Source: an uncultured Clostridia bacterium
GTDB taxonomy: Bacteria > Bacillota > Clostridia > TANB77 > CAG-508
Assembly: GCA_949388605.1 (NCBI GenBank)
Contig: CASKJV010000002.1
Span: 1-64,000 of the forward strand
Length of the DNA: 64,000 bases
Reading direction: 5' to 3'
The notes beneath the pieces are model-generated. The model made no database searches and was not told the origin of the DNA. It saw nothing but the letters and a program-made list of their open reading frames with translations. Positions 7,237-23,356 of this stretch are shown in pieces (position 1 is the stretch's first letter; every line of letters starts with the position of its first letter). The position numbers and the translations under genes were made by a program.

Positions 7237-8241
7237 TTATTTTAATTTTTTATTAACAATTGCTTGTATAGCATTATAGTCATATCCTGCTGCTTTCAAT
7301 TTGTTTACTCTGTCTTGTCCATTTCCCCATTTTCCTTGTATAACTTCATTCGCAATTGTTTCATTTGATTTTTTATCTGAAACAGGTTTTGATCCAAGTT
7401 TTTGATTAACAATTGCTTGAATTGTATTGTAATCATATCCTGCTGCACTTAACTTATTTTTACGATCTTCTCCATTCCCCCAAGCACCATTTATTACTTC
7501 TTGTGCAATAGTTTCATTAGACTTTTTGCTTGGCTTTGATGCTGAAGCTGATCCATTTAATTTTTGATTAACAATATTTTGAATAGCATTTCCGTCATAA
7601 CCTGCTTGTGCTAATCTATTAAATCGGTCAGATCCATTTCCCCACTTTCCTGCAATAACTTCATTTGCAATTTCTTCATTTGATTTTTTGTTTGTATTTG
7701 GATTTGAAACTGATGCATTTCCACCATCTAATTGAGCATTTACTGTATCTGCTAATTCTTGGAATCTACTTTGTAGATATTTACCTGGGCAGGATGTATT
7801 TGCAAACATATTATGCCTTGTTAGACTTCCATTAGGCGTTCCATCATAAACTAACCTAAAATTATATCTTCTACATACATCAACTGCTAATTTAACTAAA
7901 GTATTCCAAGCAGCATCTGAAATTTTCCATTCTCCACCAATTTCGCAATTAGAAACTTCAACTGTAATTGCTTGATTATCATTTGATCTTGAACTTGATG
8001 TATATGCTCTATCTTCTTCATAAACATTACATACTAAATCTCCATCATTTCCTATACAATAGTTTGCTGATGCAATCCTATTAGGTTTTTGAAAAATATT
8101 AACTGCACATTGTTTTCCTGTTAAAATTCCTGCCATAATATGAGGAGTAAATTTACAAATTTTATGGCCATTTCTTCCTTTTTGATAATTATTAGAATGA
8201 GCAATATAAGCACCCTGTGCTAAACTTGACATTGTTCCCAT
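7237..8241 (-). CDS. Phage endolysin: N-acetylmuramoyl-L-alanine amidase with three CW_7 repeats
   Basis: Residues ~1-165 are an Amidase_2/PGRP-type domain: HIMAG holds the first zinc histidine, LTRHNMF the second, and NTSCPGKYL the cysteine ligand. It cuts the bond between MurNAc and L-alanine in peptidoglycan. The C-terminal half has three ~45-residue CW_7 (Cpl-7 type) wall-binding repeats, each with KSNE-TIA-EVI-G-WGNG...R...AGYD...IQ-IVN-KL, joined by short Ser/Lys-rich linkers. It is the last gene of the leftward late operon. Its ATG overlaps the stop of a 24-codon upstream ORF (TAATG). Confidence 0.92.
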   Translation of the reverse strand: MGTMSSLAQGAYIAHSNNYQKGRNGHKICKFTPHIMAGILTGKQCAVNIFQKPNRIASANYCIGNDGDLVCNVYEEDRAYTSSSRSNDNQAITVEVSNCEIGGEWKISDAAWNTLVKLAVDVCRRYNFRLVYDGTPNGSLTRHNMFANTSCPGKYLQSRFQELADTVNAQLDGGNASVSNPNTNKKSNEEIANEVIAGKWGNGSDRFNRLAQAGYDGNAIQNIVNQKLNGSASASKPSKKSNETIAQEVINGAWGNGEDRKNKLSAAGYDYNTIQAIVNQKLGSKPVSDKKSNETIANEVIQGKWGNGQDRVNKLKAAGYDYNAIQAIVNKKLK

Positions 8242-8315
8242 TATTCTTCACCTTCTTCCTTTCCATTTGTTAATTCTTGTTTCATTTCTTCAGTCAATTC
8301 GATTTCTTCTTCCAT
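8241..8315 (-). CDS. 24-aa acidic ORF translationally coupled to the endolysin
   Basis: ATG 8315 has a strong GAAAGGAG upstream and the ORF ends in TAATG, overlapping the endolysin start. The endolysin ATG has GGAAGGAAG within this ORF. The product is extremely acidic (starts MEEEIELTEEMKQEL). It may serve mainly to couple or meter endolysin translation rather than make a functional protein. Confidence 0.5.
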   Translation of the reverse strand: MEEEIELTEEMKQELTNGKEEGEE

Positions 8316-8344
8316 AAAAAATCGCTCCTTTCTTTTATAAAATG

Positions 8345-8379
8345 AAAACAGGAAGATTTCTAATTTTTCTTCCTGTTTT
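8345..8379. terminator. Hairpin between holin and endolysin genes
   Basis: AAAACAGGAAG (8345-8355) pairs perfectly with CTTCCTGTTTT (8369-8379). The arm ends in a U-run in both orientations. It may partly terminate leftward transcription before the endolysin unit. Confidence 0.7.
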
Positions 8380-8415
8380 ATATAAATACCAGAAATTTAT
8401 CCTGGTATTAAAAAA

Positions 8416-8446
8416 AACGGCTTGCGAGGTTGCGTTTTAAGCCGTT
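8416..8446 (-). terminator. Intrinsic terminator after the holin gene
   Basis: On the minus strand AACGGCTT (8446-8439) pairs with AAGCCGTT (8423-8416), followed by a run of T. It begins two bases after the holin stop codon, a textbook position for a terminator. Confidence 0.8.
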
Positions 8447-8448
8447 CT

Positions 8449-8664
8449 TTATTCTTGGTTGGTATCATTTGTTGTCTCGTTTTCCGTAGTTTTTTCATCA
8501 TTTTTTCTTGTAAAGAAATAAGTCATTATTGATCCATAACTCGTACAATACAATGCTATTATTTCTGTAGGTGGATTTAAGTTAGGAATAAATAATAATG
8601 CTACTAATCCTAATGTCATTACTACGGTTACAAATGATTTTACATCATCCCACGCTTTTTTCAT
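8449..8664 (-). CDS. Putative phage holin
   Basis: A 71-residue membrane protein. Residues ~8-28 (FVTVVMTLGLVALLFIPNL) and ~35-51 form two hydrophobic segments, followed by a charged hydrophilic tail (RKNDEKTTENETTNDTNQE). Size, two-segment topology, charged C-terminus and position between XhlA and the endolysin fit a holin that permeabilises the membrane so the endolysin can reach the wall. No specific holin family is certain from sequence alone. Confidence 0.72.
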   Translation of the reverse strand: MKKAWDDVKSFVTVVMTLGLVALLFIPNLNPPTEIIALYCTSYGSIMTYFFTRKNDEKTTENETTNDTNQE

Positions 8665-8676
8665 ATTGACTCCTTT

Positions 8677-8922
8677 CTATTGGATACCGATTCCACTTTT
8701 TAATAGTGCAATTCCTATTCCAATTACTCCAGTTATAACTGCAGCTACTACAGTTCTTGTAATCCATTTTATTCTTTCGTTTATTTCTGTAATTTCTTCT
8801 TTGTTTTCTTTACTTCGTGTGTCTGCTTCATATGCTACCGATTTCAGTCCTTTGTAATCATCTAGTTTATTTTCTATCACGGCCAGTCTTGTTAATACTT
8901 CTGTTTCAAAATCGTGCTCCAT
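8677..8922 (-). CDS. xhlA: XhlA-family lysis protein
   Basis: An 81-residue protein: a soluble N-terminal helix region (EVLTRLAVIENKLDDYKG), a middle coiled segment (SKENKEEITEINERIKW) and one C-terminal transmembrane helix (VVAAVITGVIGIGIALL). This is the standard layout of PBSX-type XhlA, which cooperates with the holin and amidase in lysis. It directly precedes the holin in the leftward operon. Confidence 0.85.
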   Translation of the reverse strand: MEHDFETEVLTRLAVIENKLDDYKGLKSVAYEADTRSKENKEEITEINERIKWITRTVVAAVITGVIGIGIALLKSGIGIQ

Positions 8923-8961
8923 AAGCTTGAACTCCTTTCTTTGTATTTTAATGCAAAAAAA

Positions 8962-8981
8962 TAACGCCTATTAAGCGTTTA
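8962..8981 (-). terminator. Terminator at the end of xkdX
   Basis: AACGC and GCGTT arms around CTATTAA form a short stem, and on the minus strand it is followed by T-T-A-T-T-T-T-T-T-T. The stem overlaps the last codons and stop of the xkdX gene. Confidence 0.6.
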
Positions 8982-9123
8982 TTTCGTAATCTTCTCCAGT
9001 TATTTCTTTGTATTCTTCTTCAGTTATCCATTTACCAACAGCATTATATACCCTGGTCTTATTCCACATTCCATTGTCATAATACTTTTTTACTTTTTCA
9101 AAATTTTTACTATGTTCTTTCAT
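8971..9123 (-). CDS. xkdX: XkdX family phage protein (50 aa)
   Basis: ATG 9123 gives MKEHSKNFEKVKKYYDNGMW and continues with NKTRVYNAVGKWITEEEYKEITG. The spacing of the YYDNG-W, V-NAV-GKWIT-EEY-EITG signature identifies the short XkdX family, found in tail modules of PBSX-like phages, usually just before the lysis genes as here. Function is not known. The gene ends inside its terminator. Confidence 0.82.
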   Translation of the reverse strand: MKEHSKNFEKVKKYYDNGMWNKTRVYNAVGKWITEEEYKEITGEDYEINA

Positions 9124-9124
9124 A

Positions 9125-9454
9125 TTATACCTCCTCTAGGTCAATATCAGTCATCATTGCTAAATACTCTATATCACTTTGCATTTTTATTTCTTTTAAT
9201 TCATCTGCAGATAATTCTCTTAAGATAAAATAATATCCATCTTCATAATGAACTACTTGCACTAATTCCATATGTTCATATTCCTGTGTTATTACTTGTC
9301 CATCTTCTGTAGTTTCTTTAATTATAACTTTTGACAACTTTCCTTTGAAATCATTTTCTGTAATTTTTGTATTAGATATATAATTGTTTCCACTTAATCT
9401 AAGGTTTTCAAGTTTTGTTCCATCAGAAAGTGTAATCTCCCACGATTTTTCCAT
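9125..9454 (-). CDS. Phage tail-region hypothetical protein (109 aa)
   Basis: ATG 9454 follows AGGAGG with correct spacing, although the gene overlaps the last 61 bp of the reverse transcriptase. The N-terminal half is beta-rich (WEITLSDGTKLENLRLSGNNY), and the C-terminus is helical and acidic (DIEYLAMMTDIDLEEV). Short proteins of this build often precede xkdX in clostridial prophages. I do not assign a function. The overlap suggests coupled translation with the retroelement. Confidence 0.7.
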   Translation of the reverse strand: MEKSWEITLSDGTKLENLRLSGNNYISNTKITENDFKGKLSKVIIKETTEDGQVITQEYEHMELVQVVHYEDGYYFILRELSADELKEIKMQSDIEYLAMMTDIDLEEV

Positions 9455-10518
9455 TTTACTTTCCTCCTAAATAAATCATAATATAATTGAGACATATTAG
9501 ATATTTGTTGCATTGACATATTCTTATAATTACCTGACATCCAAGATTTAAAAATATTCTCTATTTCATTTATAGTTAAAATCCCTTTATCTAATAGTCT
9601 CTTGTATGCTTTTAATTTTCTTCTTTCTCGAGTAATTGCTTTTGGATGTATTTTTCTAACTACTCGGCCTGTTTCTGTTAATTTATATTGCAATTGCAAT
9701 ATTCTAAATAATTGAGATAATTTACACAATTGAGTTTTTTTAGGATTAATTATTAATCCTAAACTATCTGCAATTTGTTTAATCTCTTTTAGTAATTGTT
9801 TTAAAAATTCTTTATCCTTATGAATAATATACATATCGTCTGTATATCTTCCGTAATACTTAACACCTTTTACAATTTTAATATAGTTGTCTATTTTGGA
9901 AGGATATGAAATCCCTATATTTTGCGATGGTTGACTTCCTATATCAACACCTCTCATATTTTTATTATCAATATTAAATATTTCAAATAGATTCTTTAAA
10001 ATCCATAATGCAATTTTGGCTTCTCCTGGATCTACATTTTTAAAAAAAGATTCTAAACTTTTCAAATATAAATTATGAGGGATACTTGCATAATATCCAC
10101 TAAAATCTATCAGCAATATGTACCCCTCATTAGTTTTGTTTTCTCTATAATATTGATGTAAATGTACTTCTAATCTTTTTCTATGAAACGCTACACCTTT
10201 TCCTGTTTGACTGGCACTATTATCATATATAAGATAAGGAGTAATTGCTGGGTTCAAAACATTATCACATAATAAATGATTTACTGTTTTATCAATCATT
10301 TCATTAGTTGTAATATTTCTTATTTTTCCTCTTTCATTTATTGTAAATTTTGCACCTTTTGTTGGCCTATATTTTCCTTCTATCATCGCTTTTTGTAATT
10401 CTGCTGTTTCTACTAGATGATTAATTTCAAAAAGTTGTGATTTATATTTAAAAGGTGCTGCTTTTATTGCTTTTGTTCCAGCATCATATATTTTATTAGC
10501 ATCAAAAAAAATATTCAT
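9394..10518 (-). CDS. DGR reverse transcriptase
   Basis: A 374-residue reverse transcriptase. Visible motifs in order: SGYYASIPH (palm, first catalytic aspartate region), IGSQPSQNIG (the G-x-x-x-SQ form characteristic of DGR enzymes), YTDDMYIIH (catalytic YxDD box), LGLIINPKKTQL, and the LYYDLF tail. It copies the TR RNA into cDNA with adenine-directed errors and the product replaces VR in the target gene. There is no maturase, endonuclease or X domain, which argues against a group II intron. It is preceded by TR and avd, the classical arrangement. Confidence 0.95.
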   Translation of the reverse strand: MNIFFDANKIYDAGTKAIKAAPFKYKSQLFEINHLVETAELQKAMIEGKYRPTKGAKFTINERGKIRNITTNEMIDKTVNHLLCDNVLNPAITPYLIYDNSASQTGKGVAFHRKRLEVHLHQYYRENKTNEGYILLIDFSGYYASIPHNLYLKSLESFFKNVDPGEAKIALWILKNLFEIFNIDNKNMRGVDIGSQPSQNIGISYPSKIDNYIKIVKGVKYYGRYTDDMYIIHKDKEFLKQLLKEIKQIADSLGLIINPKKTQLCKLSQLFRILQLQYKLTETGRVVRKIHPKAITRERRKLKAYKRLLDKGILTINEIENIFKSWMSGNYKNMSMQQISNMSQLYYDLFRRKVKWKNRGRLHFLMEQNLKTLD

Positions 10519-10775
10519 AAAATCACTTATATAGCATTACTAGTCGTAACTAAATGCATAATGATTAGCATTTATCAGCCTTCGCTTTGCTGAAGGGATA
10601 ATCTTTCCTTTCCTTTCCCATAGCCTTACTTATGGAAACATAGCCCATTTAAAATCGCAAGGGTGTGAAATCAGGACGAACGCCGTTCACGTTCGAAGCG
10701 TTGTTGTAGTTGGCATTGCCATTGTTGTTGACATTAGCGAAGTTAGAAGAAGAAACCACATATAAAGATTACCCA
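10519..10775 (-). ncRNA. DGR template RNA region (TR plus downstream structured segment)
   Basis: The space between avd and the reverse transcriptase has no coding ORF and contains TR (10761-10667), followed on the minus strand by about 145 nt with small hairpins. Examples are CCTTC/GAAGG (10579-10596) and CCATA/TATGG near 10618-10635. In characterised DGRs the RNA downstream of TR is needed for priming and cDNA synthesis by the RT-Avd complex. Exact RNA ends cannot be seen from sequence. Confidence 0.75.
10667..10761 (-). repeat. DGR template repeat (TR)
   Basis: 95 bp homologous to VR at 11428-11522. Read in the frame of the target gene, TR encodes a peptide packed with asparagine (12 AAY codons). 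The two repeats differ at 15 positions, and every one is an adenine in the coding strand of TR (25 adenines in total). None of the other 70 positions differs. This is the defining signature of adenine-specific mutagenic retrohoming. Confidence 0.97.
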
Positions 10776-11285
10776 CTATTTTATATTTTTAAGAAATCTG
10801 TTATCAGATTGTCTAAGAGCCTTTATCATATTAAATTCTTTCTGTATTTCCAATACTAAATTTGTATATTTATTAAGATCTGCATATAAGCACTCTCCAA
10901 TATATTGTAATTCATCTTGCAGAGCATTACAGCAAGACATTGCTCTATCCATTTCCAATCTTCGTTCTTCAAATTCCGACATATAACTTGGAAATATTGT
11001 ATTTGCAATTCTTAAATGCTGACTTATTCCACAAGCAAGCTCTATTACTCTATTTGTTGATCTTCTTATTTGTTGCTTGAAATAATCGTATGTTCTTTCT
11101 TTCAATCTATTTTGATCATCTTGAGGAAATAACTTTATTTTTTCAGCAATAATACTTTCTATTTTAGATTCACTTATATAAAAATTATTTTCTGCTAATT
11201 TTGTTACGGATCTTCTTATTGAATATGCACTATGTATTGTTTCTAATTTTGACTCTCTTCTTTTACTTTTCTTTATTTCTGACAT
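10776..11285 (-). CDS. avd: Avd-like DGR accessory protein
   Basis: A 169-residue, almost wholly helical protein lying between VR and TR, the standard place for the accessory variability determinant. Avd forms a pentameric four-helix-bundle barrel that binds RT and template RNA. Here the first ~40 residues (basic, KKSKRRESK) are an extension, and the remaining part has four helix-length segments, including QQIRRSTNRVIELACGIS and EFEERRLEMDRAMSCCNALQ. It is somewhat longer than the typical Avd (~110-130 residues). The assignment rests on position and fold-like pattern. Confidence 0.8.
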   Translation of the reverse strand: MSEIKKSKRRESKLETIHSAYSIRRSVTKLAENNFYISESKIESIIAEKIKLFPQDDQNRLKERTYDYFKQQIRRSTNRVIELACGISQHLRIANTIFPSYMSEFEERRLEMDRAMSCCNALQDELQYIGECLYADLNKYTNLVLEIQKEFNMIKALRQSDNRFLKNIK

Positions 11286-11385
11286 TGCTAATAATACTAT
11301 TTTTACTCCTTCTCTATTTTATCGCAGAAATTATACCACTTTATTTTTGTCTTTTTAACTCTATTGTGCAATCACTATATTATAT

Positions 11386-11406
11386 GACAGGGCATAAAGC
11401 CCTGTC
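11386..11406 (-). promoter_or_regulatory. DGR hairpin downstream of VR
   Basis: GACAGGGC (11386-11393) pairs perfectly with GCCCTGTC (11399-11406), loop 5 nt. It lies 21 bp beyond the 3' end of VR in the coding direction, just after the stop codon of the target gene. In the Bordetella phage DGR a hairpin with an 8-bp stem at the equivalent place promotes target recognition. TR has no such hairpin after it, which fits a mark for the recipient copy. It could also terminate transcription. Confidence 0.82.
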
Positions 11407-11415
11407 GATGTCTGA

Positions 11416-12699
11416 TTATTTGATTAGGAAAGCAGGACGAACGCCGTACACGCCCGAAGCGTTGCTGTAGCCGGCATAGCCACGGCTGTTGACAAGAGCG
11501 AAGCCAGAAGAAGAAACCACATCCCTTAGCCAGTACCAATATCTTTGACCTGCATCATTTAAAGCCACTGTTGCTTCGTGTTTTAATCTGAATAATGATA
11601 ATTGTTGTTTATCAATAGTATATAAGTTTGGAATCGTTGTATTAGATGTACCAATAGTTGTATGAGGTGTAAATATATAAGAACCATATACCATAGGTTC
11701 ATTCATCAATTCTATCTCTGAATCATACCAAGTTCCACCAGTTGCATATCCATTTGTAACAGCATTCTGCAAATAATTTCTATGTTTCAAAATATGGCCT
11801 GCTCCAAAATCACCTTTTATTACATTTTTATATGGTGTTAAATTTGTAGTGTACATCTTGCTTCCAACATATCCTCCTGTTGTAACATTGGTATCATTCA
11901 TATTAGCCGTTCCCATTATTTTTTCAGGTATCATTAGAATATGAGGTGTAATGCATTCCGTATCACCCATATGTAATCTATAATTTAAATCTGCAACTAA
12001 ATATTTTCTTCCACTTTGTTGTCCTATGATATAATCTCCAATAAATATATCATCAAAAGTTCCTGCTGCAATTTGTTGACTTAAAGTTCCATCATAAAAT
12101 TTGCTTGTTATATCTTTTCCTCTATAAATTGCATTGTGTGCTGCTGCATTTGGAGCAACAACTATTTGTTTCAAAGCATTTATTTTTCCTGTATAATCTT
12201 CTGTTAATTCTGCAGCTTTTTCATTTAATTCTTGTTCATTTACATATACTGTACTTGGATCTACTGTAATTGTAACATTATTTGCATTATCTACAGTAAT
12301 TATCATATCGTAATAATGCTCTTTCTTTTCTGTTATGGAATTGTTTATATATTCTGCTTCTTCTCCATAATTTATATATGCAAACAATACTTGTTGATTT
12401 GTATCAGGATCAATAGCATATAAACCTAATTCTTTTAACCAGAAGCCTTCTTCGGCATCTGTATTTTTAAATAAACCTCTAACAGTAACTTGTGTATCAG
12501 TTTCTCTGTTTATTTTAGTTATATCGAAGTTTAATTCAGGGTTTACTAAACCTGTCAAAGCTTTTATAGTTTCTACACTAGAATCTGCAATATTTCCACT
12601 ACCTATTGAAAAATGTGAAAAACTTAATGTCTTTGATTGTAGTGTTTTAGCTGCTAATATTGCTCCCTGTGTAGTTATATAAGTTGTACCATAAGCCAT
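11416..12699 (-). CDS. DGR target: tail fibre/collar protein with hypervariable C-terminus
   Basis: A 427-residue protein. Residues ~1-150 resemble phage tail-collar fibre N-termini (AYGTTYITTQGAILAAKTL, FSIGSG, FWLKELGLYA), which attach to the tail tip. The C-terminal ~130 residues look like a C-type lectin/FGE-like fold, with RYWYWLRDVV and a GVRPAFLIK end. The last ~32 codons are VR. Ten residues differ from the TR-encoded version: eight at AAY codons changed to Gly, Ser, Tyr, Leu or Arg forms, one more AAY to Tyr, and one Asp to Ala. It is likely the receptor-binding protein whose diversity changes host range. Confidence 0.93.
   Translation of the reverse strand: MAYGTTYITTQGAILAAKTLQSKTLSFSHFSIGSGNIADSSVETIKALTGLVNPELNFDITKINRETDTQVTVRGLFKNTDAEEGFWLKELGLYAIDPDTNQQVLFAYINYGEEAEYINNSITEKKEHYYDMIITVDNANNVTITVDPSTVYVNEQELNEKAAELTEDYTGKINALKQIVVAPNAAAHNAIYRGKDITSKFYDGTLSQQIAAGTFDDIFIGDYIIGQQSGRKYLVADLNYRLHMGDTECITPHILMIPEKIMGTANMNDTNVTTGGYVGSKMYTTNLTPYKNVIKGDFGAGHILKHRNYLQNAVTNGYATGGTWYDSEIELMNEPMVYGSYIFTPHTTIGTSNTTIPNLYTIDKQQLSLFRLKHEATVALNDAGQRYWYWLRDVVSSSGFALVNSRGYAGYSNASGVYGVRPAFLIK
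11428..11522 (-). repeat. DGR variable repeat (VR)
   Basis: The 3' end of the target gene, aligned without gaps to TR (10667-10761). Fifteen substitutions, all opposite template adenines. The 3' end in coding direction is an adenine-free, GC-richer stretch (GGCGTTCGTCCTG) identical in both repeats, the expected IMH where cDNA integration begins. The hairpin at 11386-11406 follows. Confidence 0.97.
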
Positions 12700-12702
12700 T
12701 TA

Positions 12703-13251
12703 TTATTCCTCCTCTACCAATTCTATATATTTTCTATTTACAAGTAAAATTCCTACATTATAATTTGTAGGAATTTCGTGTTCTTCTTGTATTGTATCTG
12801 TGTTTATAGGTAATTCCACATAATTTCTGCGAATAAGAGTTGTTCCAAAATTATATGGTAATTCTAATATAATATTCATTTCTTCAAAATATTGATTTGT
12901 ATCATACAATATTTTTTCTAATACATTTGCTTGTTCATAATTTAATGTATTATTATTGATTATCGTTTCAGTAGTTAATGCATAGCAAAATTCTTTTAAT
13001 TTGTTTATGTTGCTTCTTATTCTGTCTATATGCGTTCTTGTTGGATAATTTTGCATATTCCAATTAGTTTTTATTACTAAATCTTCAGAGAAGCCATATT
13101 TTTTAAAAATATTCATTAAGTATTCACACCAGGACTCTACTCTATTTAAATCTGTATAGTTGTAACTTCCTTTTAAATGTGTACTACTTCCTGGATTATT
13201 CAAAGCTGTTTCAACATCACTTGCTGATCGATCATATATTAAATCATCCAT
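12703..13251 (-). CDS. Phage tail/baseplate-region hypothetical protein (182 aa)
   Basis: Lies between the large tail protein and the variable fibre, with 3 nt to the fibre gene and an 8-bp overlap with the upstream gene. The sequence is mostly helical with a conserved-looking opening (DRSASDVETALNN) and a segment rich in aromatic residues near the middle. The C-terminal part has two similar short motifs (IRRNYVELP and LVNRKYIELV), suggesting a small internal duplication. Probably a fibre adaptor or baseplate part from its position; no domain is recognised. Confidence 0.75.
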   Translation of the reverse strand: MDDLIYDRSASDVETALNNPGSSTHLKGSYNYTDLNRVESWCEYLMNIFKKYGFSEDLVIKTNWNMQNYPTRTHIDRIRSNINKLKEFCYALTTETIINNNTLNYEQANVLEKILYDTNQYFEEMNIILELPYNFGTTLIRRNYVELPINTDTIQEEHEIPTNYNVGILLVNRKYIELVEEE

Positions 13252-15025
13252 TGCTTACCTCCTCTCGAACATAAACATTTCTTACCAACATTGAAGCATA
13301 TTCTTCTTTTAATGTTGCTTGCCTTAATACAGTCAATAATCTTACTCTTGCATTTATCTCTGCACTTGCTAAAAAGCCACCAGTTAAGTCTATATCTAAT
13401 TTCTTGATGTGGCCAACTAACTGTCTGCTAAAATCGTTACTTTCTATTGCAACATCTTCTGTTAAACTTTCGCCTTTTAAAATAAAATCAAATTCAGTTT
13501 TATATGTTTTTTGGTAATAATCTAATACTTTTTGTGCAATTGTTAATGCATTACTTTTGTTAATAAAATATGCTGATTCTATATTTAAAGTATTTAGTTT
13601 GCTGTCTGTTCCTATATCTTCAACTTTTGCTGATATTTCTTGTGTATTATCTATATATTTATGGCCAGTAACAATAATTTCTTTTTCAGTTGTGCAATTT
13701 ATAATTGCATAATTACAATTAGATTCTTTTATAGTTCCTGCTGCACAAGATAAATCATATACTGGGTTATCAAATAAAATTCTATTGTCACCTTTGTCTA
13801 ATACTCCCTTAAATACTTCTTCTGCATCTGATCCTTTTATATAATTATGTGCAGTTACAGCAACTTCTGTAACAATCTCATTTTGCTCTACTTTTTTTGT
13901 ACCTTGGAATATATTAGTTTGTTCAATAGTATTGTTATCTTCTTTATCTACAATTGTATATATTCTAATTTTATCGCTTCTACTACAATCTGCAATAGCA
14001 CCAACTGCAAATACAAGTTGTTGTAATGCTTGTCTATGTGTACATATAGGAATATATCCTGTCATCATTATATTTTTTAGATTTTCTTGTATTTCGTAAT
14101 TTTCTTCAGCTACATTTGCTGAATCCATTACAGCTTTTATCATATTTTTAAAAGGTATGTTAACATACATACCACCATAAAAGGTTGTTTTATCTATTAT
14201 TCCTATTAGATCTATTGCATCAAATTCCATAATTTTGTTATCTGCATTCTTCCAAGTATCAAGGTAAAATGTACCCATATTTATTTCTTTTCCTTCTTTT
14301 AATAGAAGTTCTTTAACTTTAAATGCTTGTCTTTGCTGTAATAGACTATAAAACCCTGTTGGATTTATAATATTAAATTCGTCATCTTCAGAGTAAACTT
14401 TAAATCCTAAAGTATTTATGCTAACCTCCGAACTTAACAAATCCATCTCTTCTAAAATGTTTGCACTTATTAAATTATCGCCTTCAAAAGTTTTGTTTGC
14501 TCCATACAATATCTGATACAACTTAATATATCTGTATGGATTATTTGTACCACAAAATATAATAACTATTTTTTGGTAGTTTTCAACAATATTATTACAA
14601 ACATATTGGTAATCATCAGGATAAAAGTCTGAATCGTTGATTAGCTGATTATCTTTATCATAATAGGTTATATTTAAATGACTACAATAGTCTCCTGCTT
14701 TACTAAATAAAAATGTTAAACCTAAACTACTATGTGGTTCAGTAAAATTTATTGTTAATACAGGAGGTCTTTCAAATATTCCAGCATCATTACTCATACT
14801 GCTTGACCATAAACACATATTGTCTAGATTTTCAGGCATTAATTCAAATGTTCCATCTAATGCAAATTGATTTCTTTCCAATGTAGCATATTTTGTTTCT
14901 TCAATATCATCTTGTTTTAGATCTTCTAAATCAACAAAGTCTTGTTTATCTGTAATGCTTAACTGACTGTCTGATTTTGCTGTAACATCAATAAATCCAA
15001 ATTCTATTTGCGTTTTTGTTTTCAT
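13244..15025 (-). CDS. Large phage tail protein, tail tip/baseplate hub candidate
   Basis: About 593 residues; 5'-most usable ATGs are at 15031 and 15025. The latter has AAGGAG at proper spacing and is preferred. The stop of the upstream gene overlaps (TGATG), so translation is coupled. The protein has a beta-rich N-terminal part (~residues 40-200) and a middle region typical of tail proteins that follow the distal tail protein (e.g. IEFDAIDLIGIIDKTTF-like segments). No peptidase motif is obvious. Placed after tape measure and a small tail protein, it is best called a tail tip structural protein. Confidence 0.7.
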   Translation of the reverse strand: MKTKTQIEFGFIDVTAKSDSQLSITDKQDFVDLEDLKQDDIEETKYATLERNQFALDGTFELMPENLDNMCLWSSSMSNDAGIFERPPVLTINFTEPHSSLGLTFLFSKAGDYCSHLNITYYDKDNQLINDSDFYPDDYQYVCNNIVENYQKIVIIFCGTNNPYRYIKLYQILYGANKTFEGDNLISANILEEMDLLSSEVSINTLGFKVYSEDDEFNIINPTGFYSLLQQRQAFKVKELLLKEGKEINMGTFYLDTWKNADNKIMEFDAIDLIGIIDKTTFYGGMYVNIPFKNMIKAVMDSANVAEENYEIQENLKNIMMTGYIPICTHRQALQQLVFAVGAIADCSRSDKIRIYTIVDKEDNNTIEQTNIFQGTKKVEQNEIVTEVAVTAHNYIKGSDAEEVFKGVLDKGDNRILFDNPVYDLSCAAGTIKESNCNYAIINCTTEKEIIVTGHKYIDNTQEISAKVEDIGTDSKLNTLNIESAYFINKSNALTIAQKVLDYYQKTYKTEFDFILKGESLTEDVAIESNDFSRQLVGHIKKLDIDLTGGFLASAEINARVRLLTVLRQATLKEEYASMLVRNVYVREEVSNG

Positions 15026-15030
15026 AATCA

Positions 15031-15417
15031 TCAACTCCTTGCTGGCCTTTTAGCCGTGAAGTTTACAGTCATATCTTTCCTATATGCCTTGTTATTTTTA
15101 AAATCGTAAATTACTCTCGAAACATTATTAAAATAGGCCTTAAATTCAAGATTAGCAATTTTGACTGTATGAAACTCCTCAGGTTCTGTAAGTTTATTCC
15201 ATAATCTTTCATACTCATCATAATTGCTATCAGTTTGAGGTTCAAATTTAATGTCAGAAAAATTAAAATATACACCTATTAGTTCTCTTTTTAAGTCTCC
15301 ATCATCTGTTCTATTTGCATATTTATCTAAAAAGTCTGCTGCTTCTTTAATATTTGCATATACACCAATATTGAATTGTATTCCATCAAGTAATATAAAA
15401 TCGTACTTCTCTGCCAT
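15031..15417 (-). CDS. Distal tail-like small protein (128 aa)
   Basis: Begins MAEKYDFILLDGIQFNIG and is beta-rich with a central acidic segment (SNYDEYERLWNKLTEPEEFH). It follows the tape measure gene directly (shared base at 15417) and precedes the large tail protein, the usual place for a distal tail (Dit-like) protein. It is shorter than most Dit proteins, so the function is positional inference. Confidence 0.65.
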   Translation of the reverse strand: MAEKYDFILLDGIQFNIGVYANIKEAADFLDKYANRTDDGDLKRELIGVYFNFSDIKFEPQTDSNYDEYERLWNKLTEPEEFHTVKIANLEFKAYFNNVSRVIYDFKNNKAYRKDMTVNFTAKRPARS

Positions 15418-18400
15418 TATGTTGCACCTCCTATAATCAATTTATTACCTTTTCTTTTGCTTTCTCTATCTAGTTCAGGTTTTAATACTCTTATTAATTG
15501 TGACATTGTACCATTAAAGTTAAGTGTTATATTTTGTGCTTGAGTATTGTTGTTTGTATTATTATTGTTTTGATCTTGGAACATTTTTAAAGCTGTCAAA
15601 ATCATATCTAACATTTTATCTTCAGGTGCAACAACTTCGCCTTGATTTTTGTTATCACCAATAACTGCTAATTGAGGTGTATTTGCTTTAACATAACCAC
15701 CTTGTGCCAATCTTGGTAGATTCAATTGATTTAATTTTCCTATACTAACACCAGGAATATTATTAATCAAATCAATTGCACCATTTATCATATTTACGAA
15801 TTTATTTACTACACCCTCTATCATTCCAAGCACGCCATTTATTCCACTTTTTACTGCTCCACTTATTGCATCCCCTATTTTTGTACCTAATGCACTAAAT
15901 GTATTTTTGATGTTATTCCATATACCACTAAAGAAACTTCCAATATTTCTAAATATACCTGTAATTCTGTTATAAGCTGTTTGGAAGTTATTTATTATTC
16001 CATTTTTAATACTATTTACTGCATTACTAATACTATTTTTAATTCCATTCCATATATTTGAAACTGTATTTTTTATTGCATTGAATATATTTGAAATAAC
16101 AGTTTTTATTGCATTAAATACAGTAGTAATAATTCCTTTTATAACATTTATTACTGTTTCTATTATTCCTTTAATTGCATTCCATACAGTAGAAACAACA
16201 CCTTTAATTGCGTTCCAAATTCCTGTGAAAAATGTTTTTATTCCTTCCCAAGCTTTGTTCCAATCTCCTGTGAAAATACCAACAATAAAATCTATTAAAC
16301 CTTTAAAAGTTTGTATAATTCCACCTATTGTATCTGTAATAGCACCAAATACATTACAAATTGTGTTCCATAATGCTTCAAATATTGGAACTAATACAGG
16401 AAGAATATTTTGTATAATCCAATCAATAACTGGTTTTAGTATATTATTCCATAATGCTGTTACTGCATCTGCTATACTTCCAATTAATCCTGCAACATTG
16501 TCTACAAAAGGTTTTAAATGTGTATTCCATAATTCATTGAATTTTGTTGCTAATCTCTCTAACATAGGTGCAACATAAGTATTATATGCATCTAGGAATT
16601 TTCCAAAAGTATCACTTATTCCTGTTTTCAATGATTCCATTAAAGGATGTATATGTTGATCATAAACTTCATTCCATTTATCTCCAACATAAGTCATTGC
16701 TTGTGCTAATGTAGAAGTAAAACTTTCTATTGGTTTCATTACATTTTCAATAGTAGTTTTTATTTTTTCTGCATTATCTATAATTGGTTGGAATAGTATT
16801 GCTTTTAAATCAAGTACAAACTTTCCACATAATTCTTGAATACTCATAAATGGATTAGCAAAAATTGCTATTATATTTGCACCAATTTGTTTCGCAGCAT
16901 CACTTTTAAATACATCTGATATTTCCCCTAATGCTTGAAATAAATTACCTGTTAAAGTTAAGTCTTTACTAGAAATATCAAACATTTTACATATATGGCT
17001 TTTTATTCTTTCAACATTTTGTGACAAGTATTTATCTATACTTCCCACTAATCCTTCAGCAAGATTTATTCCTATTCTTGCTACTGAACCTGTAACCTGT
17101 CCAAGTGTGAATAATAAAGTTTTTACCCAATTCTCTGCTGCACCTAATACTTTTGGATCTGTCCAAATATTGATTATTGTATCTTTTATTCCATTTAAAT
17201 GTCCTATTATTCCATCAAAGTTTGTGTTTCCAAAACTAATGTCAAACCCACTTTTAAATATACTTGCTAATTCTTTTACTCTTTCAATTAAGCCATCAAA
17301 TGCTGATGTATCTTCAGTAATTGTACTTGATACATCCAATGTATCTTTTATACCTGCAGAACTGCCTCCTGCTCCTCCACTAGATCCACCACCTGAAGCG
17401 GATGTATCTTTTTGAAGTACATTTAAATTATCAAATGATGCTAAATTGTTTGATGCTTTTTTTGCATCTTTTCCTACTTTTTTTGCACTATCTCCAACAC
17501 CTGAAATTGCATCAGATGCATCTCCTGCTTGAGTTGCTAAATCTCCCATTCCACTTGATACAGTTTCTACGCTATCTGCTTTTAATCCAAATAATGCAAG
17601 TAATCCTGAAAGTGCTGTAAATAATCTTGTAACTACATTTACTGCACCTGTAATAATTGGAATAAATAATTTTGCTATTGGCTGTATTGCATTTCCTATT
17701 GCTGTTTTCATAGTTGTAAATGCTTGTGATAATTGTGCTACTTTACCTGAATATGTATTTGCATAAATCGCAGCATCATTACTTTGGAATTTTGTCTCTT
17801 GCAATATTCCATTTACTTCTGCTTGGATTTTTTCTTGCTGTGTTAAATTATTTGTTGTTTTTCCTATTGATTTTGCATAATCTTCCCACATTTTTGCTAC
17901 ATTTTTTGTAACACCTGCATTATCAACTAATATACTATTTTCATTTTTCAAACCTTCAGATGCAGTTTGTACTGCTTCTCCAAGACTATATGTACTCTGT
18001 CTGCCAAATGTTGCACTATTTTTTAAAGCTATCATAGTCTTTTGTATCTGATCTGAACTATAACCTCTTGCTGCTAAATTTTTATATGCTGTTACAGCAT
18101 TATTCAAAGGAACTAAACCATCTGATATATAATCATTTATGAATTGTTTTGCTTTATCAAAACTTTTTCCTTGGCCAGTTAATATTGAATTTAATCCTAT
18201 CCAAGCATTAGAAGTTTCAGTTGCAACATTTAAACATTCCTTTCCCCATTTTACAACTGCAGCAACAGAAAAAGCTGCGAGTGCAGCCTTACCTATTTTA
18301 GATAATGATGATGAGATTTTAGAAGAAGCCGTATTTGCTTGTGCATCAATATTTTTTAATTGTGAACTAAATTTATTACTATTTAATATTAAACTAAGGT

Positions 18401-18425
18401 CAATTTCCCCTACATTTGTACTCAT
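15417..18425 (-). CDS. Tail tape measure protein
   Basis: The largest phage protein, 1,002 residues. The N-terminal part (ISSSLSKIGKAALAAFSVAAV) and the stretch to residue ~270 match the helical tape-measure opening with a hydrophobic segment. A Ser/Gly-rich linker lies near residues 345-360. Residues ~640-830 hold repeated amphipathic units of about 11 residues (forms of WNAIKGVIS / FNAIKTVIS). The C-terminus has the GGYVKANTPQLAVIGDN-like segment common in these proteins. It sets tail length and is probably ejected with the DNA. A tail around 130-150 nm would be expected from its size. Confidence 0.93.
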   Translation of the reverse strand: MSTNVGEIDLSLILNSNKFSSQLKNIDAQANTASSKISSSLSKIGKAALAAFSVAAVVKWGKECLNVATETSNAWIGLNSILTGQGKSFDKAKQFINDYISDGLVPLNNAVTAYKNLAARGYSSDQIQKTMIALKNSATFGRQSTYSLGEAVQTASEGLKNENSILVDNAGVTKNVAKMWEDYAKSIGKTTNNLTQQEKIQAEVNGILQETKFQSNDAAIYANTYSGKVAQLSQAFTTMKTAIGNAIQPIAKLFIPIITGAVNVVTRLFTALSGLLALFGLKADSVETVSSGMGDLATQAGDASDAISGVGDSAKKVGKDAKKASNNLASFDNLNVLQKDTSASGGGSSGGAGGSSAGIKDTLDVSSTITEDTSAFDGLIERVKELASIFKSGFDISFGNTNFDGIIGHLNGIKDTIINIWTDPKVLGAAENWVKTLLFTLGQVTGSVARIGINLAEGLVGSIDKYLSQNVERIKSHICKMFDISSKDLTLTGNLFQALGEISDVFKSDAAKQIGANIIAIFANPFMSIQELCGKFVLDLKAILFQPIIDNAEKIKTTIENVMKPIESFTSTLAQAMTYVGDKWNEVYDQHIHPLMESLKTGISDTFGKFLDAYNTYVAPMLERLATKFNELWNTHLKPFVDNVAGLIGSIADAVTALWNNILKPVIDWIIQNILPVLVPIFEALWNTICNVFGAITDTIGGIIQTFKGLIDFIVGIFTGDWNKAWEGIKTFFTGIWNAIKGVVSTVWNAIKGIIETVINVIKGIITTVFNAIKTVISNIFNAIKNTVSNIWNGIKNSISNAVNSIKNGIINNFQTAYNRITGIFRNIGSFFSGIWNNIKNTFSALGTKIGDAISGAVKSGINGVLGMIEGVVNKFVNMINGAIDLINNIPGVSIGKLNQLNLPRLAQGGYVKANTPQLAVIGDNKNQGEVVAPEDKMLDMILTALKMFQDQNNNNTNNNTQAQNITLNFNGTMSQLIRVLKPELDRESKRKGNKLIIGGAT

Positions 18426-18817
18426 TATCTCACCTCACTTTGTGCCATAGTTTTAAACATATTCTTTATGCTTTCCATAGCTTGTTCATAATTTTCTTCG
18501 CTTATTTGAGATGCTGATTTTGTTAACCACTCATTTCTAATTTTGATTTCTTCAGGAGTAAATTTCTTTAATACTTCAGGATCTTTTTCTTTTCTAATTC
18601 TTACAATGTTTCCAAGTGGTGTATCTCCTTTAAGTCCTGCAATATCACTTATTAATTCTCCCCAGTCTAAATTATCTATTTCTTTTCTAATGCTATAACC
18701 ATATTGTGTTTTTAAACTTGAGGCCACTAAATCCCAATCATCAAATAAGTCGTATCCTGGATCATATGTCGAAGTATTATTGAAATCGTTTCTCCATTTC
18801 CTCATAACTTTCTTCAT
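18425..18817 (-). CDS. Tail assembly chaperone, downstream frame (probable frameshift product)
   Basis: A 130-residue frame (Gp15-like) overlapping the end of the upstream chaperone by 41 bp in the +1 frame. Its first ATG (18817) has no ribosome site. It ends exactly where the tape measure gene begins. In siphophages the gene just before the tape measure is normally made as a C-terminal extension of the preceding chaperone by programmed frameshifting; the layout here fits that. The N-terminal residues listed from the ATG would then be partly untranslated. Confidence 0.8.
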   Translation of the reverse strand: MKKVMRKWRNDFNNTSTYDPGYDLFDDWDLVASSLKTQYGYSIRKEIDNLDWGELISDIAGLKGDTPLGNIVRIRKEKDPEVLKKFTPEEIKIRNEWLTKSASQISEENYEQAMESIKNMFKTMAQSEVR

Positions 18818-19082
18818 TTACAACTGCTGCTAAAGCTGTTACAATTGCTTTTAATCCAGGTATAGTAAGCTTCATTTCTTTTATTTCCTTTAGGGCTTCT
18901 TTTCCCATTAACATTTCAATCATTTGGTACATAACATCAATAGAAAAATCTTGATTTTTTATTTTTTCTTGTACTAACAAATAATTGTCTGCACTTGTAT
19001 CTACTTCATAAACCTTACCTTCTGCAAGTTTTATAGTTGCTTTCTCTTTTCCTAATTTTGAACTAATATCAATTACTGCCAT
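18777..19082 (-). CDS. Tail assembly chaperone, upstream frame
   Basis: A 101-residue protein (starts MAVIDISSKLGKEKATIKLA) located between the major tail protein and the tape measure, equivalent to gpG of lambda-like phages. The reading frame ends CGA-TTT-CAA-TAA. A +1 slip of the Phe tRNA from TTT to TTC would join it to the 18425-18817 frame. It helps the tape measure protein fold and recruits tail tube subunits (family knowledge). Confidence 0.82.
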   Translation of the reverse strand: MAVIDISSKLGKEKATIKLAEGKVYEVDTSADNYLLVQEKIKNQDFSIDVMYQMIEMLMGKEALKEIKEMKLTIPGLKAIVTALAAVVNEESYEEMEKRFQ

Positions 19083-19122
19083 TTTAAATTACCTCTTTTC
19101 TTTTTATATATAAAAAAATAAA

Positions 19123-19146
19123 GCCCCAGTAGATAACTACTGAGGC
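19123..19146 (-). terminator. Terminator after the major tail protein
   Basis: GCCTCAGTAG and CTACTGGGGC arms (minus strand, one G-T pair) with loop TTAT, followed by TTTATTTTTTT. It sits 6 nt after the major tail gene and probably lowers expression of downstream tail genes relative to the abundant tube protein. Confidence 0.85.
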
Positions 19147-19151
19147 TTGTT

Positions 19152-19601
19152 TTAAGCTGCTGGTGTTACAGTTGGTTTTCCATCTGACATAACCTCGAAC
19201 TCTAAAGGTGCGACATTTGTACTATCGCCAGTACCAGCGTTTGATACAGAAATAATACAATCGAAACTAACTGTTGTTCCGTCTGCAAATTCCCATTCAA
19301 ATTTGGTTTCTACGGCTTGACCTGTTGAAAATAATTTACTTGCAACATAGTCATTTCCTTCATCACCAACATTTCTTTTTCCTGAAATGCTAATAGAGAA
19401 ACCTTTACCTGTTTGCATTCTTCTGATCCATCCTTCTGTTGTCATTGGTGTCCACTCTTCTACATTATTGTCCATTGACAAAGAAAATGTTTCACAATCT
19501 GCAATTGTTTTCATATCTTCAGCTGCAGATGCTCTGCCTTTTGTACCTATTTTAAATACATTATTAAATACTGGATATACTCCACTTGTTACAGTTGCCA
19601 T
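19152..19601 (-). CDS. Major tail tube protein
   Basis: A 149-residue beta-rich protein (NVFKIGTKGRASAAEDMKTI opening; EEWTPMTTEGWIRRMQTGKG; SGKRNVGDEGNDYVASKLF). The pattern is that of phage tail tube proteins of the phi13/Siphovirus type. It forms the stacked hexamer tube. Position between the tail terminator-like protein and chaperones is standard. A strong terminator follows. Confidence 0.88.
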   Translation of the reverse strand: MATVTSGVYPVFNNVFKIGTKGRASAAEDMKTIADCETFSLSMDNNVEEWTPMTTEGWIRRMQTGKGFSISISGKRNVGDEGNDYVASKLFSTGQAVETKFEWEFADGTTVSFDCIISVSNAGTGDSTNVAPLEFEVMSDGKPTVTPAA

Positions 19602-19604
19602 AAG

Positions 19605-20030
19605 TTATTCCTCCTTTTCATTTTTTTCATAATAAAAGATCGCCTGTATAACCCTTTCATAGATGTTTTTGTCATCTGTTCCAACATCTACAGCTTCAGG
19701 CACAAGCAATCTTATATAATTTACTTTTATATCGTTTATAACAAATTCTTTTGATTCTAAAAATTTATTATAAATCTTGTTTGAAATTTCTTCAGTTTCT
19801 TTAGCATTTTTATTCCAATGAATCAAAATACTAACTGATTTTTCTAGGGTTTTGGTATTATCAATTCCACCTATTGCAATATTAGTTTCATTGCTGGTTT
19901 TTAATTGATATACGCCAATAGACTTGTCTTTCTTATTATCTAATTTTCCTATATAACAATTCTCTGAAGCAGTATAATTTAAAGATTTTATCCAATCTCT
20001 TATATCTGCTAATCCTAACAGTTTACTCAT
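19605..20030 (-). CDS. Tail terminator-like protein (minor capsid protein 3 type)
   Basis: A 141-residue protein beginning MSKLLGLADIRDWIKSLNYT, with a middle beta region (IGVYQLKTSNETNIAIGG, VSILIHWNKNAKETEEIS) and a C-terminal strand-rich end. This is the layout of the Minor_capsid_3 family that caps the tail before head joining. Its position directly before the tail tube gene supports this. It shares one base with the next upstream gene. Confidence 0.75.
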   Translation of the reverse strand: MSKLLGLADIRDWIKSLNYTASENCYIGKLDNKKDKSIGVYQLKTSNETNIAIGGIDNTKTLEKSVSILIHWNKNAKETEEISNKIYNKFLESKEFVINDIKVNYIRLLVPEAVDVGTDDKNIYERVIQAIFYYEKNEKEE

Positions 20031-20410
20031 TATAAACCTGCCTCCTTTTTATAAAATTGTGAAAATGCCTTCTTGCAAAAATCTTTTTCTTTTCCAGTAG
20101 TCCAGGGCTCATACCAATTTCCTCTAGCATTTGGATTTTCCTCTTTCGAGAAATTATATTCAGGATGAAAATACATTCTTCTAGCATAAGGTGTAGAAGT
20201 ATTTAAACTTACTTTTCCTTGTTTGCTATTGGAATAATCCTCATATGTATTGTCATTCTGCATATTTCCACTTTTAAATGGCATTACTTGTGCATTTACC
20301 ACTTCAGTATGCAAAGCACTAACAGTCTTTTCAAGTGAAGTTATGGCTGCACGATCTAATTGTTTTATTTTAGGAGCATTTAATTTTATTTTGGAAGTTA
20401 CAGTTTTCAT
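20030..20410 (-). CDS. Minor capsid protein 2-type neck protein
   Basis: 126 residues. The segment QVMPFKSGNMQNDNTYEDYS followed by TPYARRMYFHPEYNF and NARGNWYEPW is typical of the Minor_capsid_2/HK97 gp10-like family, a head-tail joining protein. Shares its terminal base with both neighbours, showing tight operon packing. Confidence 0.82.
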   Translation of the reverse strand: MKTVTSKIKLNAPKIKQLDRAAITSLEKTVSALHTEVVNAQVMPFKSGNMQNDNTYEDYSNSKQGKVSLNTSTPYARRMYFHPEYNFSKEENPNARGNWYEPWTTGKEKDFCKKAFSQFYKKEAGL

Positions 20411-20748
20411 TACATTATCTCCAATTCCGTAAAATTAACAGTTCCATCAGGATTTCTTGCTTTTGTTCCTTGATATATTGATCTTGTTTCTCCAAATACA
20501 GTAACTTGGCCACCAGAAATAACTGCCAAATCAGGAGCAATATCTCCGACAAAGTATGCTTTTGCAGTTAATTGAATTATTACTTTCTCTGCAGTTAATA
20601 CTCTTTTAGCTTTGTCCTGGTAATTGCATTTTAATTTTGTATCTAATGCAATTATTGGTTCGCCATCTTCTGTTGTCCCTTCGTCATATAAAACAACTTG
20701 AATATCTGTTTTACAATTTTCTTTTCTTACTAATTTTGGATATACCAT
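20410..20748 (-). CDS. Minor capsid protein 1-type head closure protein
   Basis: 112 residues, beta-rich (DIQVVLYDEGTTEDGEPIIA; KCNYQDKAKRVLTAEKVIIQ; GQVTVFGETRSIYQGTKARN). This matches the small head-closure/minor capsid 1 family found between the connector and neck proteins in Firmicutes siphophages. Confidence 0.78.
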   Translation of the reverse strand: MVYPKLVRKENCKTDIQVVLYDEGTTEDGEPIIALDTKLKCNYQDKAKRVLTAEKVIIQLTAKAYFVGDIAPDLAVISGGQVTVFGETRSIYQGTKARNPDGTVNFTELEIM

Positions 20749-20749
20749 A

Positions 20750-21133
20750 TCAACACCTCATATTCCTACAAGTTAATCCTGTTTGACTTAATAAACAATA
20801 ATAATCTTTTGGTATTGCAACACCATTTTGAACTTGAATATTCCAACTTGTTCCAAAGTTCATTGATACACCATTTATTGCATAACTAGATAATGCAGAC
20901 TTTATCAAGTCCTCATTTTCATATTCAAAATCAGCAAGTTTGCATACAACTTCTTTTATAATGTCTTGTTGGAATTTTGTTAAATTTTCAAAACCTCTTC
21001 CAACTATACGATTATAAGTTAAAGTATCAATATGCATACTTGCTTCTTTTAATTTTTCTTCAATTTTATCTTCAGGAATTATTGTTCCTTTATAGGTATT
21101 TTGATAATAAGTAATATCTACATAATTACTCAT
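20750..21133 (-). CDS. Head-tail connector (gp6-like adaptor)
   Basis: 127 residues, mainly helical: YYQNTYKGTIIPEDKIEEKL, the helix pair around ASMHIDTLTYNRI, and LTKFQQDIIKEVVCKLADF. This is the pattern of gp6-like head-tail adaptors that bind the portal after packaging. It follows the major capsid gene by 14 nt. Confidence 0.8.
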   Translation of the reverse strand: MSNYVDITYYQNTYKGTIIPEDKIEEKLKEASMHIDTLTYNRIVGRGFENLTKFQQDIIKEVVCKLADFEYENEDLIKSALSSYAINGVSMNFGTSWNIQVQNGVAIPKDYYCLLSQTGLTCRNMRC

Positions 21134-21147
21134 ATCTTACCTCCAAT

Positions 21148-22050
21148 TTAGGCAGTTCTTTCGATATAGAATTGAATAGCATCGTGTTTCTTATTGTAGA
21201 TGAATACATCTTCAAAAGACTCTTCAAAGTATGTCCATTTTCCTTGTGATAAAGAACTTGGAGCACCTAATTGAGCAAAATCATATGCTATTACTGGAAT
21301 AACTGCAGATGTATGTACTAATAACATTTTTACTTCTTTTGCATTTTCAGCAATTTCAAATCCATCATCAGTAAATTTATAAGCAGATTTCATTGCAGAT
21401 TTTGGAACACCAATTACTTCAACTTCTCCAATTCTGTCTAATGATCTAGCAACTGCTGTGTCTTGTGCTGACAAGTTTCTAGCAGCTTCTTTTGCTGTAT
21501 CAATTAGAGTTTTTGTAGGAGTATCTGCATACAATAATCTTCCTGCAGCAGGAACTCTTGCTTCATCCATTTTGTCCATCATAGCATCAAATTTTGTTAA
21601 TACATTTGCTAATGTAAGAACATCATCTTCTGTAATTGCTTCAATTTCATTTTTTAAAGCATATAATGCTGTAATCATTTCAGCATCCATTTCAGGGAAT
21701 TTTTGTTCCTCATTCATAACTTTAGTGATATTTTGAATTGTTGCAACATGATTTGTTTCATCAATATCTCTTGGATGAATAAGTGTATCCCAAGTTCTGT
21801 GAGTTTTTAATTTCTTTGGTTCTTCAGCATTATTGAAGTTTCTTCCAAAGCTTCCTATTGAGTCCCTATCTCCGTTTTTTCTACCTTTTACTGATAAACT
21901 TGGTAGAATTACTGTATCATTTCTTAAAAATTTAACATCTGGTTTTGTTGCATTCCATAAAGCACCAAAGAATAATGTATATGGATATGCTTGTGCTAAA
22001 GCTTGTGAATATTCTTTAGCATAATTTAATCCTGTTTTTTCAAATGGCAT
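21148..22050 (-). CDS. Major capsid protein
   Basis: 300 residues. A short N-terminal region is followed by the HK97-fold pattern seen in this capsid family: LFFGALWNATKPDVKFLRND, the beta hairpin around TVILPSLSVKGRKNG, the long spine-helix region MITALYALKNEIEAITEDD, and the C-terminal strand AVIPVIAYDFAQLGAPSSL. No N-terminal scaffolding extension is present; a separate scaffold gene lies upstream. It forms the icosahedral shell. Confidence 0.88.
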   Translation of the reverse strand: MPFEKTGLNYAKEYSQALAQAYPYTLFFGALWNATKPDVKFLRNDTVILPSLSVKGRKNGDRDSIGSFGRNFNNAEEPKKLKTHRTWDTLIHPRDIDETNHVATIQNITKVMNEEQKFPEMDAEMITALYALKNEIEAITEDDVLTLANVLTKFDAMMDKMDEARVPAAGRLLYADTPTKTLIDTAKEAARNLSAQDTAVARSLDRIGEVEVIGVPKSAMKSAYKFTDDGFEIAENAKEVKMLLVHTSAVIPVIAYDFAQLGAPSSLSQGKWTYFEESFEDVFIYNKKHDAIQFYIERTA

Positions 22051-22080
22051 AATAAATCGCCTTCCTTTCTTTTTTTACTT

Positions 22081-22728: not shown

Positions 22729-22802
22729 AATCGCTACCTCCTACTTTTTTAAGTCTTGAAATGACTATATATACACAAGCTTTTATCCTCTTCAGTGTTT
22801 GG

Positions 22803-22832: not shown

Positions 22833-22840
22833 TAATCAAA

Positions 22841-23113: not shown

Positions 23114-23141
23114 TTCCTTTTACCTCCTAATATTATATTTT

Positions 23142-23351: not shown

Positions 23352-23356
23352 ATTAA

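Follow-up and report, generated by a model that had tools for sequence, protein, structure and literature searches.

A stretch of 64,000 nucleotides of an uncultured Clostridia bacterium (GCA_949388605.1, contig CASKJV010000002.1, positions 1 to 64,000), analysed as a whole and hereafter called the window, carries on its minus strand a cassette supported as a complete diversity-generating retroelement (DGR) with the layout of the BPP-1 DGR, located in the tail-fibre gene of a prophage. That it works in kind as the BPP-1 element does is, in our judgement, very probable. As a kind the cassette is ordinary; its new parts are the RNA of the spacer between the template repeat (TR) and the reverse transcriptase (RT) gene, and the loop of the hairpin downstream of the variable repeat (VR). 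The order of transcription is the target tail-fibre gene with VR at its end, hairpin, avd-like gene, TR, 148-nt spacer and RT. A preliminary description of the locus gave coordinates, strand and part order correctly, and its assignment of a complete DGR to a prophage tail-fibre gene is supported by the match of RT to the DGR RT 8ub7, by the PF12571 domain of the target, by the phage genes around and by the host genes beyond. The features, numbered by window position, are as follows:

9394..10518, minus strand: RT, 374 aa; YTDD at residues 225-228, IGSQPSQ from residue 193; PF00078 at 1.4e-15, PDB 8ub7 at 5.5e-6
10519..10666, minus strand: spacer (Sp), 148 nt, between TR and the RT start; covariation; model R1
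10667..10761, minus strand: TR, 95 bp with 25 adenines; template counterpart (IMH*) of the initiation of mutagenic homing site (IMH) at about positions 77-95, A91 at 10671
10776..11285, minus strand: avd-like gene, 169 aa, all-helical model
11386..11406: hairpin/cruciform after VR, 8-bp GC-rich stem, 5-nt loop TTTAT (sense strand)
11428..11522, minus strand: VR, 95 bp; changed positions 18-75 (11505-11448); fixed IMH C91 at 11432
11416..12699, minus strand: target tail fibre, 427 aa; N-terminal PF12571, C-terminal DUF6273 with VR; PHROG 7037 at 5.9e-38
7237..47054, ends approximate: prophage; phage genes inside, host genes outside

Adenine-specific differences between TR and VR

TR and VR of the window, 95 bp each, differ at 15 positions (9 A>G, 3 A>C and 3 A>T), all of them among the 25 TR adenines and none among the other 70 positions (hypergeometric p 3e-11, the pair being taken as given); this recount agrees with the preliminary description. 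Nine asparagine codons are changed, as had been stated, although TR contains 11 such codons in the VR frame and not 12. The Asp-to-Ala replacement listed there is also present, at TR position 91, but it is a fixed difference and not a product of mutagenesis, C being found at this position in 22/22 close VRs; therefore, 14 of the 15 differences count as mutagenesis.

Relatives were drawn from viral contigs, from named metagenome-assembled genomes (MAGs; e.g., Clostridia bacterium, roe deer cecum) and from genomes of the family; a restrictive VR-type pattern run over the viral contigs matched one contig. Of 27 candidate close loci, 22 were counted, namely, the window and 21 relatives; L081, L078 and L053 were dropped because the pattern used detected no TR in them, and L056 and L064 because they repeat L044. 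In the 22 loci, position 91 apart, TR adenines are changed in VR in 283 of 534 cases (159 to G, 65 to T, 59 to C), versus 5 of 1,534 non-adenine positions. The comparison of VRs among relatives, proposed in the preliminary description as a check, thus finds changes concentrated at TR adenines, a hallmark of DGRs, and the pattern is not a matter of chance, since it recurs in 21 relatives. In the nearest relative, L008 (RT identity 89%), VR differs from that of the window at 17 positions, all at window-TR adenines, and TR differs at 1/95.

Among the 11 pairs of loci sharing the same TR, eight differ in VR at 12-16 positions each, every difference being at a TR adenine. Loci L009 and L010 provide a clean natural record of homing: across 10,022 bp of L010, 15 positions differ, 14 of which are in VR, 14/14 at TR adenines. 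These loci lie on contigs of two MAGs placed in different genera (g29 and g30); the two contigs are near-identical over about 10 kb except in VR, and this near-identity reflects either a shared phage or a binning error.

Boundaries of the transferred tract

The transferred tract can be bounded without experiments. Of the 283 adenine changes, 282 fall at TR positions 18-76, where 282/501 adenines are changed, versus 1/33 at positions 1, 14, 15 and 89 (Fisher p 2e-10, only a guide because the loci are related). Adenine 89, a silent third codon position (proline wobble) in six TRs, is unchanged in 6/6, which points to an absence of copying rather than to selection; adenine 14, also silent, is unchanged in 4/4. 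Taken together, the confinement of changes to positions 18-76 and the unchanged A89 suggest that the TR 3' end beyond about positions 77-88 is not copied into VR.

At position 91, all 22 close loci have A in TR and C in VR, while C stands at 59/534 of the other TR adenines; position 91 is therefore read as a fixed IMH*/IMH marker. Accordingly, another hallmark of DGRs, an IMH that differs from IMH* and is left unreplaced, is found here in the A91-to-C difference and the retained A89. The IMH/IMH* pair and phage-tail targets are described in PMC6642488.

Hairpin downstream of VR

For phage DGRs, GC-rich stems of 7-10 bp with 4-nt GRNA loops after VR have been reported, and enlargement of the BPP-1 loop by as little as 2 nt brought activity near background (PMC3240598). 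All 22 close loci contain a perfect stem of 7-10 bp (only perfectly paired stems were admitted by the search) with a 5-nt loop, TTTAT in 15 and CTTGT in 7; one of the loops is carried by four stem sequences. BPP-1, run as a control in the same search, gave its GAAA loop. Stem length therefore fits the published consensus, whereas the loop, which is not a defining DGR feature, departs from it in 22/22. Among 27 more distant loci, a 5-nt loop was found in 10, a 4-nt loop in 3 and longer loops in 2, while this search found no stem in 12.

Reverse transcriptase, helper and target proteins

The only PDB sequence match of RT at E<=0.01 is the DGR RT 8ub7. Identity with BPP-1 RT is 24% (BLASTP 4e-13), and the IGSQPSQ motif, of a type that we take to mark DGR RTs, aligns with IGSLTSQ of BPP-1. 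These features place the enzyme in the DGR lineage. A broken catalytic site, named in the preliminary description as grounds for rejection, was not found, the YTDD motif being intact. Two relatives' RTs listed as broken were dropped from that category, the apparent inside stops being the genes' own ends.

By structure comparison, the model of the helper has the Avd fold, the accessory fold characteristic of DGRs. In sequence databases, no Pfam Avd family matched any of 33 helper members, NCBIfam gave no match, the PDB sequence search gave nothing useful, and the match to phrog_17154 at 3.3e-4 is uninformative. In 7 of the 36 avd reading frames listed (L035, L041, L045, L052, L057, L066 and L067), avd reads in frame through TR and ends like the target peptide.

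The N-terminus of the target belongs to the phage tail-collar fibre family PF12571, and the C-terminal DUF6273 scores above its cut-off. The best PDB profile match of the C-terminus has an E of 0.35, to an unrelated protein; annotated VR regions are reported to have the C-type lectin fold (PMC8144416).

Conserved RNA of the spacer

In the 19 loci for which it was determined, the spacer has a length of 147-159 nt. An RNA alignment (A2) included 17 of 20 spacers, with L080, L083 and L084 omitted as near copies; its structure consists of 34 pairs, 28 from RNAalifold and six pairs of helix 2 added by hand. Two-sided changes that keep pairing were found in 12/34 pairs, and pairing holds in 96.2% of cells. 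For four of five measures, none of 500 shuffles, which do not preserve relatedness, reached the observed value; sliding of the partners destroyed pairing, and no slid version came close. In a wider alignment (A3), two-sided changes occur in 33/34 pairs, and pairing in helix 6 is kept in 98% of cells; however, A3 as a whole is fitted to the model, a bias towards pairing, and it includes weak rows up to E 1. In helix 1, TR A91 is paired with U in 17/17 sequences; support for this pair is weak because helix 1 hardly varies in the close set.

The covariance model R1 scores 176.7 bits on the window, itself among the 17 training sequences, with a match at 10518-10681 that includes the TR 3' end. Of the 44 sources searched with R1, the window and L081 are set apart; 22 of the 42 others matched at E<=0.01, always no more than about 30 nt from where the RT match starts, with L052/L066, L035/L055 and L034/L054 as likely copies. 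Among 390 family genomes, R1 (1e-4) and RT (1e-60) pick the identical 10 genomes, and no R1 match was found in genomes with more distant RTs (e.g., G015 and G024). On contig 12 of genome G023, additional weaker R1 copies lie inside the cassette. Rfam at the gathering threshold found only a tRNA in the window. To judge from these alignments, the TR-RT spacer is a conserved covarying RNA, with no match in Rfam, that tracks this RT clade. No report of covariation in DGR spacers was present among the literature matches listed, most subscription journals lying outside their coverage.

Activity of the cassette and alternative explanations

Several observations weigh against the proposed reading. An invariant VR with no adenine bias, which the preliminary description named as a ground for refutation, is not what eight of the 11 same-TR pairs show, their changes being at adenines only, but in the remaining three pairs (among L044, L056 and L064) TR and VR are identical. 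L044 and L056 are identical also around TR and VR, and hence the three may be one phage seen repeatedly. The model of the target C-terminus is poor (predicted local distance difference test score, pLDDT, 53.7); Foldseek alone compared the helper with 8ub7 at an E of 0.64, and no sequence similarity to BPP-1 Avd was found (hhalign E 0.41). As to the spacer, a fifth covariation measure, further pair types, was reached by 357/500 shuffles, and the window Sp folded alone is no better than shuffles (z 0.01). R1 covers only part of the wider clade, as it misses 20 of the 42 other sources: L007, L017-L024, L026, L036, L039, L041, L042, L047, L048, L051, L063, L068 and BPP-1. Besides BPP-1, these are the ten sources most distant in RT, together with nine more. 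With filters off, the best R1 score on the BPP-1 spacer is 4.4 bits, which is not credible.

The three contigs with identical TR and VR favour the explanation that the cassette is real but now silent, with VR as a fossil of past homing. On the other hand, every part of the window cassette (RT, helper, TR, Sp, hairpin and target) is open or intact, the apparent stops inside relatives' RTs proved to be gene ends, and TR and VR of the window show no non-adenine difference and therefore no visible drift since the last homing. We regard a silent cassette as improbable, and present activity of the window copy as likely. The claim of active or recent homing in the preliminary description thus stands as recent homing for close relatives (L009/L010), and as a likelihood for the window copy. 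An ordinary duplication, with differences due to selection or general mutation and not to RT, is conceivable in that TR is open in the VR frame, as a duplicated gene end would be; however, the near absence of changes outside adenines in the 22 loci, the silent A89 kept while nearby adenines change, and the confinement of L009/L010 differences almost solely to VR leave it a negligible likelihood. Hardly any credence is due to an RT of a defence (DRT) or group II intron system standing beside repeats by accident, since the hits that suggest it (PADLOC RT_UG4 at 9.5e-15; NCBIfam group II at 53 bits vs a cut-off of 300) are opposed by the sole PDB match at E<=0.01, which is a DGR RT, and by the helper, TR and Sp RNA adjoining RT in the close loci measured.

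Proposed mechanism

In the proposed working of this DGR, RT and the Avd-fold helper would bind the transcript carrying TR and Sp in a putative RT-helper-RNA complex, and Sp would fold into a conserved multi-helix RNA. Priming would occur in Sp, and synthesis of complementary DNA (cDNA) would start at about TR positions 77-88; in BPP-1 the priming nucleotide lies in Sp. The cDNA of TR would receive random bases at template adenines and then replace VR at the end of the tail-fibre gene, IMH (C91) and the hairpin just downstream guiding the replacement. The fibre tip, which presumably binds a receptor, would vary while TR with its IMH* (A91) stays intact. Sequence or model shows the adenine-only differences, the mutated zone at 18-76, the untransferred 3' end (A89, A91) and the hairpin, as well as RNA covariation, the helper fold and VR replacement between near-identical relatives.

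A bolder proposal, to which we would give somewhat less than even chances, is that an undescribed class of structured RNA, extending from the TR end to the RT start and fixing the start of cDNA at about TR 77-88, is common to a clade of gut Clostridia phage DGRs. One base would do two jobs, A91 of TR serving an RNA helix and C91 of VR serving the protein and marking the recipient, and a single untransferred base pair together with the 5-nt-loop hairpin would set the direction of homing.

Genomic context and related loci

The host genome is a 2.1-Mb draft in 56 contigs, 97% complete and 6.4% contaminated, and is therefore probably a metagenome bin; GC of the window is 28%. A single RT match (E<=0.001) was found in this genome, and the search for repeats, with an exact 48-base pattern and with the target protein, detected one TR and one VR. 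The prophage, at about 7.2-47 kb, encodes tail, head and lysis proteins (endolysin, XhlA-like holin, tape measure, major tail and head proteins, portal and terminase), as well as primase/helicase, single-strand binding protein, Sak4, repressor and integrase. Host genes beyond it include dnaE, pseudouridine synthase, CdaA, SpoIID and others. The search for attachment (att) repeats gave three AT-rich 14-bp matches, which are unconvincing, and a second att search gave nothing.

A +1 frame break at TGC CGG (CGG at 2348-2350) splits the dnaE gene (373-3880); this CGG is the only one in the 63 open reading frames (ORFs) of the window (17,793 codons, 631 of them for arginine). At this site, 12 of 53 genomes of the genus, including the window's own, have TGY CGG (the pattern demanded CGG), 39 have in-frame TGY GGN, and 2 have neither. 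No tRNA-Arg(CCG) was found among the 34 tRNA genes of the 97% complete host genome, the arginine tRNAs being ACG, TCT and CCT; elsewhere in the 12 dnaE loci, CGG makes up 5/395 arginine codons, which counts against its simple absence. The break is possibly a programmed +1 frameshift. Shifting by +1 at extremely rare CGG_(A) codons is reported in glass sponges (PMC5009743), and in some low-GC Firmicutes CGG is described as very rare, lacking a tRNA or reassigned (PMC8629427); Bacillus subtilis reads CGG with no dedicated tRNA (PMC10454642), which counts against starvation as the cause of frameshifting.

In one RT sub-clade, RT is split at codon 53 at AAR CGG AA in 7/7 loci (L004, L005, L062, L080, L081, L083 and L084). 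Both parts are under selection (ratio of nonsynonymous to synonymous polymorphism, pN/pS, 0.16 and 0.18), while the zero-frame tail, which does overlap the other frame, is not (1.02); CGG accounts for 0/149 arginine codons in the downstream parts, and in 7/7 a TTG located 23 nt upstream could serve as a separate start. A +1 frameshift and two separate proteins are both candidate explanations. No report of frame breaks in DGR RTs was found, by title and abstract start, among the literature matches listed, which leave most subscription journals outside coverage.

Genome G023 contains three DGR RTs of this family (L079, L080 and L081) on three contigs. In L081 (contig 12, 7458-9734), VR ends an ORF of 37 codons, a length insufficient for a lectin domain; a TR copy differs from VR by 9 changes at A, 2 at non-A and 5 gaps. 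The locus contains three related short ORFs (26 residues common to two, about 20 in the third), two TR copies and degenerate spacer copies; its flanks look by eye like housekeeping genes, no family search having been made. A short-ORF DGR of this type was found in G023 alone among the 390 family genomes.

Comparison with known systems

The cassette resembles the BPP-1 DGR (mtd-avd-TR-brt) in gene order, adenine-specific TR/VR differences, the IMH*/IMH difference at the 3' end, the hairpin after VR, the tail target and the fold of the helper, and the spacers are of similar length (144 nt in BPP-1 vs 148 nt). Unlike BPP-1, it encodes an RT of only 24% identity and a helper of 169 aa with no sequence similarity to the 128-aa BPP-1 protein; TR is 95 bp vs 134 bp, the 3' ends differ at one position vs five, the hairpin loop has 5 nt in place of GAAA, and R1 does not match the BPP-1 spacer. 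With a second spacer fold, in which no resemblance to that of BPP-1 was detected, one could ask how RT, helper and RNA start cDNA.

The Acutalibacter phage Fontainebleau (ON453893; L078), a complete phage genome with a named host (Acutalibacter muris in the record), is a testable relative for this covariation-supported RNA model of DGR spacers outside BPP-1. It shares RT (47-49%) and avd (46%), a TR ending in GATTTC and a VR ending in GCTTTC, a hairpin with the 5-nt loop CTTGC and a spacer RNA match to R1 at 1.5e-18; it differs in a spacer of 57% GC and in 3/20 TR/VR differences at non-A positions (92 bp compared). Its record annotates RT, labels the avd-like and target genes 'hypothetical' and lists neither TR nor VR as a feature. 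Closest to the cassette are prophage DGRs of uncultured Clostridia MAGs (L008-L015), with RT identities of 76-89% and the same cassette order where measured; in some of them (e.g., L009 and L012), the VR domain is joined to a different N-terminal domain.

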